A stretch of DNA of 32,143 nt from Desulfosarcina sp. (GTDB lineage: Bacteria; Desulfobacterota; Desulfobacteria; Desulfobacterales; JAFDCJ01). The translations under genes and the position numbers were made by a program. Under the pieces are notes generated by a model that worked only from the letters and a program-made list of their open reading frames with translations, was not told the origin of the DNA and made no database searches. The DNA is taken from contig JARFPZ010000613.1 in NCBI GenBank assembly GCA_029288035.1, positions 1 through 32,143 of the forward strand. Reading direction: 5' to 3'. This document shows, piece after piece, positions 4,933-21,817 of this stretch (the first letter of the stretch is position 1; every line of letters begins with the position of its first letter).

Positions 4933-5853
4933 TCAACCCCTCGGATGAAAGCGTTTGTGCAAATCTTTGAGGTGCTTGCGGGTGACGTGGGTATATATCT
5001 GGGTCGTTGAAATATCGACATGACCGAGCATTACCTGAACAGCTCTTAAGTCGGCTCCGCCTTCCAGCAAGTGGGTTGCAAACGAATGCCGCAAGCTGTG
5101 AGGAGTGATTTTTTTATTCAGATGGGCCAATTTGCCATAGCGCCGCAACAATTTCCAAAAACCCTGGCGCGTTATTGGTTTTGCCGCTCGGGCAACGAAA
5201 ATGTAAGGACTGACTTGATTTTTCAAGAGCATATTTCTTGAATGTTCCAGGTAAAATTGGATTTTTTCTTTGGCAAGCGATCCAATAGGAACCACCCGCT
5301 CTTTTGATCCCTTGCCGAACACTCTTACAAAACCGGATTCTAAATTAAGACTTTGCAATTTCAGATTAATCAACTCAGATACTCTCAGACCGGCAGCATA
5401 CAAAAGTTCTAGCATGGCGGCGTCCCTTGCACCGATCGGCTTAGCGGGATCCGGTTTACTCAGCAGCTGGGACACCTCTTCCACCGAAAGAACATCCGGA
5501 AGTTTAAGGCTTGTTTTCGGAAGATCAACCAGATCGGCGGGATCACGTTTGAGTACTTTTTGTTTGACTGCAAAACGATAAAACCCCCTTATCGACACCA
5601 GATGCCTGGCTCTGGAGCGCGCGCCCAGGCCGGCATTTCTAAGAGCGATCAAATGTTTCAGGATCAACACCGTATCGGTTTCAGAAATACACCCAATGTC
5701 GCTATCCTGCAAGAATAGTTGGTAGCGGATCAAATCCCGACTGTAAGATTCCAATGTGGAACTAGAGAGCCCCTTTTCGACCAGCAAATAATTCAGGTAT
5801 TGATCGATCAAAATATCCATCGGGGGTATTTGGGATGGCAACATATAAACCAT
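4933..5853 (-). CDS. xerD: Site-specific tyrosine recombinase XerD/XerC
   Basis: 306 residues, close to the ~298 of XerD. The N-terminal SAM-like core-binding domain runs to about residue 105 (DQYLNYLLVEKGLSSSTLESY) and the catalytic domain follows. All catalytic residues are visible: Arg157 (AAGLRVSEL), Lys184 or Lys181 (GKGSKERVVPIG), His252 and Arg255 (HSLRHSFATHLL), His278 (MLGHVDISTT) and nucleophile Tyr287. Family members resolve chromosome dimers at dif with FtsK. The Met at residue 12 (MDILIDQYL, position 5820) matches the usual family N-terminus better than 5853, and neither has a clear ribosome site. It stands alone, with no integrase-associated genes, so a housekeeping role is more likely than phage integration. 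Confidence 0.88.
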   Translation of the reverse strand: MVYMLPSQIPPMDILIDQYLNYLLVEKGLSSSTLESYSRDLIRYQLFLQDSDIGCISETDTVLILKHLIALRNAGLGARSRARHLVSIRGFYRFAVKQKVLKRDPADLVDLPKTSLKLPDVLSVEEVSQLLSKPDPAKPIGARDAAMLELLYAAGLRVSELINLKLQSLNLESGFVRVFGKGSKERVVPIGSLAKEKIQFYLEHSRNMLLKNQVSPYIFVARAAKPITRQGFWKLLRRYGKLAHLNKKITPHSLRHSFATHLLEGGADLRAVQVMLGHVDISTTQIYTHVTRKHLKDLHKRFHPRG

Positions 5854-6131: not shown

Positions 6132-7358
6132 TTAAAGATTTTTTGACAGCGCCAATACGTTTTTGTTTACCGTTAGATGAAAATCCGGTTGAATAAACTC
6201 ATGATGTCCTTCCTTAAAGGGCATAAATACGAGGGTAACGCTTTTCGGGTCAATTCGGATATCACGAAGGCGCTCCACAAGCGTTCTGCGCGGTTTCATG
6301 AAATCAGCCAAGGTAATCTTTAGGCTTTCAACGGCTTCTTTGATGGGTAACGTGGTGGGATAAATCCTGGCGGCCGGCAGTTCGGAGATCAGTTTTTCGC
6401 CTGGTTGGGAAAGTGTGGTTTGGGATGCCAGGTGCAGAAATACCTTTGGACGAACCTTAAATGCGGGACTCCAGAATCGAAAAGGAATATCTTTCCAGCC
6501 GCTTTGTGCGACTTTAGGAAGATTGGCAACTGCGATCAAATCGGCATAAGATTCAAGATTTATTCCTGTAATATCGGCTTTAATGCGCCAGAAGGGCAGA
6601 TAGATGGCCTCGTCTTTTTTGCCCGGAAAATATGCAAATTTTAACTGTTTCAGTTTTTTGCCCACCGGGTACCAGGTTGAATTGCAGTTTTTGCAACCTA
6701 ACACCCATGCGTCGCGTTCGCCCTCCAGATTCCAGCCGCAGTTGGGACACAAGGTAGAAACAAATTGGATGTGCCGATGGGGATGATCTTCGCTGAAATT
6801 ATCGATATTAAAATCATCCGGCAGTTTCGTTGATACCGGTTTGCATAGGATGGCATCATAGAGTCTATCTGTCAGATAAAACGGTGAATAGATCAGGCTG
6901 AGGGTTTCTCCAATGCTGGATTGGTGTAAAATAGGTTTTGGCAGCGACTTGCCGAATCTTTCCTGGAAGGTATTTAGAAATTTATCAAAGCACTGCTGAG
7001 GTTTGAGAAATCTGCCGACCGTATCTGCGGTCGCAAAACGAAGCTTCATTGCCTGACTACGGACGCCGACTGAGCTGGGGAAACTGGGTGCCTCAATAGC
7101 CTGATGGCTGACGTCGACAAACCGGTTCAGAATGCCCGATGGCCCACAGAAAAAGAGCATACCCTTGAAGCGCCAATAGGGGAAATACACAATATCTTTG
7201 TTTTCATTAGGTGAATGCGGTAGCAGGTAGTGAAAAACATCATCTGTCATCAGATATGAATTTACCCGACAGAATTGGCAGGCAAACAGGCGGTCTGTTT
7301 CCTCTAAAATAGCGGGTGCCCCGCATTGGGGGCACTGATGTTCGATGAGAAGATTAAT
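6132..7358 (-). CDS. Double zinc-ribbon protein, partner of the SPFH gene, probable ATT start
   Basis: About 408 residues if started at ATT 7358-7356. The first zinc ribbon (Cys9, 12, 27, 30; HQCPQCGAPAI...ACQFC) sits at the very N-terminus and a second is at Cys204, 207, 222 and 225 (CPNCGWNLEGE...CKNC). Each ribbon is followed by a similar motif, YFPYWRFKG at about 58 and YLPFWRIKAD at about 253, so the protein seems to be an internal duplication. The upstream SPFH gene ends at 7369, and between that stop and the first ribbon there is no ATG, GTG or TTG. A perfect AAGGAGG (7370-7364) lies 5 bases before ATT. The track's start at 7526 would overlap the SPFH gene by 158 bases. Function is unknown; pairing with an SPFH protein recalls the ydjG/ydjI-type arrangement. 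Confidence 0.75.
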   Translation of the reverse strand: MNLLIEHQCPQCGAPAILEETDRLFACQFCRVNSYLMTDDVFHYLLPHSPNENKDIVYFPYWRFKGMLFFCGPSGILNRFVDVSHQAIEAPSFPSSVGVRSQAMKLRFATADTVGRFLKPQQCFDKFLNTFQERFGKSLPKPILHQSSIGETLSLIYSPFYLTDRLYDAILCKPVSTKLPDDFNIDNFSEDHPHRHIQFVSTLCPNCGWNLEGERDAWVLGCKNCNSTWYPVGKKLKQLKFAYFPGKKDEAIYLPFWRIKADITGINLESYADLIAVANLPKVAQSGWKDIPFRFWSPAFKVRPKVFLHLASQTTLSQPGEKLISELPAARIYPTTLPIKEAVESLKITLADFMKPRRTLVERLRDIRIDPKSVTLVFMPFKEGHHEFIQPDFHLTVNKNVLALSKNL

Positions 7359-7368
7359 GATAACCTCC

Positions 7369-8499
7369 TTAAAGTTTTTCGCCGCACTCGTTACAGTAGA
7401 GGGAATCAGTAATATTTTCATTGCCGCAATTAGGACAGGATTTGGATATCGTCTTTTCTTCCACCCCATGCCCGCAGCGGGAACAAAACTTGGCGCTTGG
7501 TGTGAGATTTTTGCCGCAGGCTTCACATTGATTGAACACCAGTTGCTGATGTCCGCACTGGGGACAGAATTTAGCGTCGATCGGGATCAATTGATGGCAA
7601 TCTGGGCAGGAAACTGCCTGCTGTTCTTCCTTTTCCTTGGACTGTGGTAAGGCACCGGCAAAATACTGCGCAAACATCGCCGGCATCATGAGCCCCATTC
7701 CGGTGCCCATCCCAGTGCCGGATCCACCTTCTGCCTCTGACGCTTTTTCCATGGCCATTGCGCTTTTCATTTGCATGAGTTTGTTCATGTCATCGAAGAC
7801 ACCCATGCGGCTTCTATCGTCAATCGCTTGCTGAACCTCGGGCGGCGGTGTGATGGCGTTGACATAAAGATGGGTCAAGTTTATACCGAAATGGCTGAAA
7901 TCTTCATGTAGGCGTTTGGCAAGTCCTTCTGAAAGCTCATCGTATTTGGCGGGCAGGTTAAGGATCGAATCTATGGTTTCTCCCATATAATCGTTAAACC
8001 TGGAAACAATGACCCGGTTTAGATATTCTTCAATTTCGGCCGTTGAAAACATCCCCTGGGTTCCCACCAGACGGTTGATAAACAATACCGGTTGCACCAC
8101 TTGAAGATTAAAAACGCCAAACGCCCTCAGGCGGATGAGGCCCAGTTCGGTATCTTTGAATGCTACCGGATCCCGTGTTCCCCACTTCAGATTGGTGAAA
8201 ACCTTTAGATTTACGAAGTACACTTCTGCCCGGAGAGGACTTTTCATACCCCAGGGGATACTGGCAATTTTTGTCAGCAGAGGGATGTTTGCCGTTTTGA
8301 GGGTATGGCGGCCCGGGCCAAATGCCCCAACTGCTTTGCCTTTATAGTAAAATATGCCGGCCTGGCTTTCCCGTATGGTTAGCTGGGCGCCGTATTTAAT
8401 TTCACCCGATCCTTCTTCCGGGAGACGATGGACCAGTTCCTGGCCGGTTTCATCAAACCATTCCAGATTTTCCAAAAAAAGAATGTTATTGGTACCCAT
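7369..8499 (-). CDS. SPFH/band-7 domain protein with three C-terminal zinc ribbons
   Basis: 376 residues. Residues ~1-245 resemble the YdjI-type SPFH domain (virion-core-like band 7 family): LFLENLEWFDETGQELVHR, GPGRHTLKTANIPLL and ALTHLY-like segment INLTHLYVNAITPPPEVQ. A Gly/Met-rich linker follows (GSGTGMGTGMGLMMP). Then come three zinc ribbons with Cys298/301/313/316, Cys325/328/340/343 and Cys355/358/370/373. SPFH proteins form oligomeric scaffolds, often at membranes. No signal peptide or clear transmembrane segment is visible, so it is probably cytosolic or peripheral. The start has GGAG about 9 bases upstream. Its stop codon touches the ribosome site of the following zinc-ribbon gene, which implies translational coupling and a shared complex. 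Confidence 0.82.
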   Translation of the reverse strand: MGTNNILFLENLEWFDETGQELVHRLPEEGSGEIKYGAQLTIRESQAGIFYYKGKAVGAFGPGRHTLKTANIPLLTKIASIPWGMKSPLRAEVYFVNLKVFTNLKWGTRDPVAFKDTELGLIRLRAFGVFNLQVVQPVLFINRLVGTQGMFSTAEIEEYLNRVIVSRFNDYMGETIDSILNLPAKYDELSEGLAKRLHEDFSHFGINLTHLYVNAITPPPEVQQAIDDRSRMGVFDDMNKLMQMKSAMAMEKASEAEGGSGTGMGTGMGLMMPAMFAQYFAGALPQSKEKEEQQAVSCPDCHQLIPIDAKFCPQCGHQQLVFNQCEACGKNLTPSAKFCSRCGHGVEEKTISKSCPNCGNENITDSLYCNECGEKL

Positions 8500-10108: not shown

Positions 10109-10185
<77 letters not shown>

Positions 10186-21741: not shown

Positions 21742-21817
21742 TGGTGCCCCCGGCAAGAATCGAACTTGCGGCACATGGATTAGGAATCCATTGCTCTATC
21801 CACTGAGCTACGGGGGC
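21742..21817 (-). tRNA. tRNA-Arg (anticodon CCT)
   Basis: The reverse complement GCCCCCGTAGCTCAGTGG... folds as a cloverleaf: acceptor GCCCCCG/CGGGGGC, D arm GCTC...GAGC, anticodon arm ATGGA-TTCCTAA-TCCAT giving CCT (reads AGG), and T arm GCAAGTTCGATTCTTGC. Discriminator A is followed by an encoded CCA. The total is 76 bases. Its 3' end faces the conserved hypothetical gene, away from the GC-rich transporter block. Confidence 0.96.

Follow-up and report, generated by a model that had tools for sequence, protein, structure and literature searches.

Comparison of orthologues strongly supports initiation of translation at an ATT codon in the zinc-ribbon gene that follows an SPFH gene in Desulfosarcina sp. 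Moreover, judged from the orthologous sequences, start-codon strength and Shine-Dalgarno (SD) strength trade off in this gene, such that a strong SD accompanies AUU, AUC, or UUG, and AUG or GUG stands without an SD. The gene pair lies in contig JARFPZ010000613.1, positions 1 to 32,143 of which are referred to here as the window (Table 1). On the minus strand, the SPFH stop codon TAA (7371-7369) overlaps AAGGAGG (7370-7364), which is followed by the spacer TTATC (7363-7359) and ATT (7358-7356). A preliminary description had claimed this arrangement of SD, five bases, and ATT, each element of which is present, and had held that the stretch from the SPFH stop to the first Cys codon (7334-7332) contains no in-frame ATG, GTG, or TTG, which is true in the window. 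The next canonical start downstream of ATT is at residue 37, beyond Cys9, Cys12, Cys27, and Cys30. Upstream of ATT, the zinc-ribbon frame continues open into the SPFH gene, where it contains an ATG at -87 and a GTG at 7526, so that the window alone was compatible with an earlier start; in-frame stops upstream in relatives do exclude it.

Table 1. Features of the window around the SPFH and zinc-ribbon gene pair.
Feature	Position	Strand	Remarks
ATT start codon, zinc-ribbon gene	7356-7358	-	Same alignment position has ATT/ATC in 66 orthologues, ATG in other lineages; first invariant Cys lies 8 codons downstream
Shine-Dalgarno AAGGAGG	7364-7370	-	5 nt before ATT, overlaps SPFH stop; SD motif at 61/66 ATT/ATC starts
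Zinc-ribbon protein, 408 aa	6132-7358	-	Two four-Cys zinc ribbons (C9 C12 C27 C30 and C204 C207 C222 C225); no assigned family
SPFH/Band 7 protein with C-terminal zinc ribbons	7369-8499	-	ATG start; first of pair; PF13421, E=3.4e-65
Hairpin GTGCCCC/GGGGCAC	7310-7336	-	Near-perfect; encoded by CPQCGAP motif
PilZ-domain gene, 106 aa	8948-9268	+	Divergent from SPFH gene; homologue in same place in L173, L174, and L175
Tyrosine recombinase/integrase gene	4933-5853	-	Directly downstream of zinc-ribbon gene; homologue near pair in L173
tRNA-Arg gene (anticodon TCT)	10109-10185	-	
tRNA-Arg gene (anticodon CCT)	21742-21817	-	

The protein had a match in 119 of 194 genomes of the order, and we compared 159 orthologous loci from the same order, comprising a first sample of 110 and a held-out set of 49, with N-termini aligned by anchoring on the first invariant Cys. 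ATT or ATC occurred exactly 8 codons before this Cys in 66 of the 159 orthologues, and one further locus had ATA. In the first sample, this position held ATT in 23 loci and ATC in 19, distributed over 20 of 48 families; the rest had ATG (25) or GTG (7) within 8-9 codons, TTG (6), or a GTG overlapping the SPFH gene (28), and 2 were unassigned. Loci without ATT or ATC had ATG, GTG, or TTG at this position or at the adjacent codon, or else the overlapping GTG. The Ile codon is invariant in the ATT/ATC loci by definition of the class, and the codons flanking it vary on both sides. In 28 ATT/ATC loci (21 in the first sample), an in-frame stop upstream is followed by no canonical start before the first invariant Cys. 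All five same-genus genomes (61-83% identity) had ATT or ATC at the start position behind a GGAG-type motif, with an in-frame stop just upstream in 4 of them. Outside the order, copies mostly had ATG, TTG, or GTG, and only L150 had ATT. All 82 aligned orthologues have Cys9, Cys12, Cys27, and Cys30, canonical starts further downstream would cost Cys9 and Cys12, and the AlphaFold model has a strand at residues 4-8, immediately before the first Cys pair.

These comparisons bear out the preliminary proposal of an ATT start, which is shared as ATT or ATC by the 66 orthologues, 28 of them lacking a canonical alternative. That description had suggested an alignment as a check for ATG at the equivalent position, and other lineages do have ATG there or adjacent to it. 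It had also named two observations that would count against ATT: a sequencing error that changed ATG to ATT is ruled out by the relatives with ATT or ATC, and conservation of an N-terminus in the overlapping frame is absent at the protein level upstream of ATT/ATC. The great rarity that it ascribed to ATT starts holds for bacteria generally but not for this gene, where they are common.

SD motifs, scored as AGGA, GGAG, or GAGG, preceded 61 of 66 ATT/ATC starts in both samples together, compared to 1 of 35 ATG and 1 of 42 GTG starts. In the first sample, the motif was present at 40/42 ATT/ATC, 4/6 TTG, 1/7 GTG, and 0/28 overlapping GTG starts, and at 0/25 ATG starts, among which L028 and L103 would count as positive if the SD window were widened to -20 to -5 (as in PMC5622118). 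Its spacing to ATT/ATC was 4-8 nt in this sample. As a control for chance, an SD motif stood upstream of only 58 of 804 ATT/ATC codons (7%) in the interior of these genes, compared to the 40/42 at the start position. Because the split between SD and start codon had been noticed after the fact, the 49 held-out loci, from genomes absent from the first sample, were scored identically; the motif was found at 21/24 ATT/ATC compared to 1/17 ATG/GTG starts (p=1.4e-7), and the ATA start found in this set also had an SD. The split persisted whether the SPFH stop overlapped the start, was near it, or was more than 30 nt away, and at these greater distances an SD was present at 17/17 ATT/ATC and 0/8 ATG starts. 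A clear SD was missing in the remaining 5 of the 66 ATT/ATC loci, including L237, which also has an overlapping GTG.

The SPFH gene served as an internal control. It starts with ATG at 92 of 94 scored positions (four loci without a canonical start near the aligned position were left out), and 85 of the 92 ATG codons have an SD motif; therefore, these genomes do not lack ordinary starts. Where the two genes overlap, the Gly codon of a Gly-Glu pair in the SPFH gene is GGA in 16 loci, which makes GGAG with a start at ATT, ATC, or TTG, and GGT in 27, which makes GTG. The association of GGT with GTG is partly by construction; its independent parts are the start-capable codon at -24 with GGA and the lack of GGC or GGG, which never occur at this codon where the genes overlap, compared to 28 of 54 loci without overlap. 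ATT shares its last base with the start of the SPFH stop codon in 12 genomes (AT-TAA or AT-TAG), an arrangement that makes ATG impossible. Among eight compared loci, the SPFH gene was the only neighbor common to all. In family f45 (L062, L081, and L056), the SPFH protein seems to be without its last C-terminal zinc ribbons, and the zinc-ribbon gene is kept.

Start types changed repeatedly within the order. On a quick tree built from the zinc-ribbon protein itself, with many open forks, Ile-codon and other starts were separated by 16 changes, compared to a mean of 33 for shuffled labels. Independent contrasts between start type and SD numbered 15 pairs on the best tree, all in the same direction; the 4 on well-supported branches also agreed, and are too few for a formal sign test.

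Two other readings of the junction place initiation elsewhere. The true start could be a canonical codon within SPFH, so that a longer protein would be made from an overlapping frame, as the open frame in the window with its ATG at -87 and GTG at 7526 would allow; moreover, the overlapping GTG of the 28 first-sample loci, at -33, is probably their start. We regard this as very unlikely for the ATT/ATC loci, given the 28 with an in-frame stop and then no canonical codon before the first Cys, the lack of protein-level conservation 5' of ATT/ATC, and the SD placed 4-8 nt ahead of it. A fusion with the SPFH protein by frameshifting or stop readthrough is less credible still. The SPFH stop is in the zinc-ribbon frame in L002, L005, L008, and L009, but among ATT/ATC loci its offset varies between -412 and -14 and falls in every one of the three frames, some loci have extra in-frame stops between the genes, and the SD lies directly 5' of ATT/ATC.

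Taking ATT as the start, we think it probable that the initiation site of this gene is kept deliberately weak, either by a strong SD with AUU/AUC or by AUG/GUG without an SD, so that less zinc-ribbon protein is made than SPFH protein. The zinc-ribbon gene comes second in a conserved two-gene unit and, on this reading, initiates at AUU; stabilizing selection would hold its initiation site weak, and its product would be made in lower amount than the SPFH partner, which has ATG and an SD. SPFH proteins oligomerize in known families. AUU gave about a tenth of the output of AUG in Staphylococcus aureus reporters (PMC13009471), and in Listeria ATT was the lowest among ATG, ATA, and ATT (PMC13068326); therefore, ATT with a strong SD and ATG/GTG without an SD are both expected to be weak sites. 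The strong combination of ATG and SD is nearly absent from the zinc-ribbon gene (1/35), and selection for low output relative to SPFH would be the simplest account of the sequences. Some ATG/GTG starts overlap or adjoin the SPFH gene, and coupling may drive their translation even where no SD is present; because of this, low output is something that we infer. The arrangement likely originated in a start/stop overlap (AT-TAA or AT-TAG), with ATT/ATC persisting once the genes had separated. From the known discrimination of IF3 against starts other than AUG, we would expect the AUU/AUC versions to be sensitive to the amount of IF3. A more far-reaching reading, which we put forward tentatively as possible rather than probable, is that start codon and SD switch reciprocally across an order and thereby confine initiation to a narrow low band, with AUU/AUC plus strong SD functionally equal to AUG without SD, and that the AUU/AUC lineages additionally place the SPFH membrane module under IF3 level.

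Selection for weakness might instead be unnecessary, if ATT/ATC were a neutral relic of gene overlap for which a strong SD sufficed. The base shared with the SPFH stop in 12 ATT loci fits such an origin, and a change from T to C at the third base is in general the most frequent kind of mutation. We consider this unlikely, because it leaves unexplained that ATG versions lack an SD even at distances above 30 nt from SPFH (0/8), the occurrence of ATG with SD at 1/35 starts here compared to 85/92 in SPFH, and the approximately 16 changes between start types. Alternatively, ATT/ATC could be a regulatory switch read by IF3, with the module rising when IF3 is short, as for Streptomyces sigR. Non-canonical starts are repressed by IF3 in E. 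coli and Streptomyces (PMC5472188), and infC of the same order starts with ATA, ATC, or ATT in 30 of 30 loci, including that of the window's own genome. Many lineages, however, use ATG/GTG without an SD, which would not be controlled by IF3 in that way; IF3 control therefore cannot be the conserved purpose, and we judge this reading highly improbable.

The zinc-ribbon gene resembles infC, which encodes IF3, in having a conserved AUH start (AUU, AUA, or AUC) after a strong SD. infC autoregulates through its own product, whereas the zinc-ribbon protein is not an initiation factor. The preliminary description had hinted at autoregulation of the infC type, which found no support: no translation-factor domain was detected in the zinc-ribbon protein, there was no sign of feedback, and the genome has infC as a gene of its own. 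A rate of initiation that is deliberately low suits the pattern better. The third base also differs, being T or C in 66 of 67 zinc-ribbon starts, compared to ATA in 27, ATC in 2, and ATT in 1 of the 30 infC loci (L114-L143; own genome L128), where two loci with two candidate codons were read as ATA. The infC start context is usually AGGAGGTGNNNN ATA GCT. Among 287 coding-like ORFs in 260 kb surveyed from a relative, no other convincing AUH start came up; the survey rule without its codon-usage filter does recover the zinc-ribbon gene in its own locus. E. coli pcnB likewise has an AUU start, its product is unrelated to the zinc-ribbon protein, and we know of no reciprocal switching to ATG with SD loss in pcnB. 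As cited in PMC13009471, Binns and Masters (2002) reported that its inefficient AUU start limits expression. In Streptomyces, sigR (PMC5472188) combines a non-canonical start and a strong ribosome-binding site with an operon in which partner stoichiometry is important. Its start is GTC/GTT, conserved in 34 species, rather than ATT/ATC, sigR is the first gene of its pair, and IF3 control was demonstrated for it, whereas for the zinc-ribbon gene such control is a prediction. Staphylococcus aureus cvfC1 (AUU) and ccpN (AUA) have conserved non-AUG starts with extended SDs that cut output to about a tenth of AUG (PMC13009471); these are other genes in another phylum, and their starts were mapped experimentally. 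Belinky et al. (2017; PMC5622118), who scored the three SD motifs applied here, found weaker start codons with stronger SDs as a genome-wide tendency for GUG/UUG, whereas the split in the zinc-ribbon gene is almost all-or-none and involves AUU/AUC; AUU was too rare to analyze in that study, where 1 of 61,358 AUG starts went to AUU.

If the favored account of a weakly held start is true, two interchangeable routes would keep production of the zinc-ribbon protein low. Few bacterial genes are known with an AUU or AUC start, and a rule that admits only ATG, GTG, and TTG misplaces such starts, which here deprives the protein of its first zinc ribbon or gives it an extension overlapping SPFH. The family offers many evolutionary switches of start type within one gene, and the trade of start codon and SD for protein level is therefore directly testable by reporters.

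The AlphaFold model of the zinc-ribbon protein has a mean pLDDT of 90. Searches with this protein gave only a marginal zf_Rg match in Pfam, no match in NCBIfam, and no PDB match at E<=0.001; weak arrestin-like matches were dismissed as meaningless. In Bacillus subtilis, YdjI is an SPFH protein that acts together with YdjG and YdjH as part of the PspA membrane-stress network, and the ydjG primer in the same report encodes MIISYKCPNC (PMC8581546), which has a Cys motif just past the start, as in the zinc-ribbon protein. We take this likeness to YdjG as a lead only. Besides SPFH, no conserved neighbor was common to all eight compared loci. The hairpin after the start was considered and rejected, since mean z values relative to synonymous shuffles were only -0.23 and -0.38 and the effect was not particular to ATT/ATC starts; synonymous codon choice leans slightly towards GTGCCCC/GGGGCAC in all start classes.
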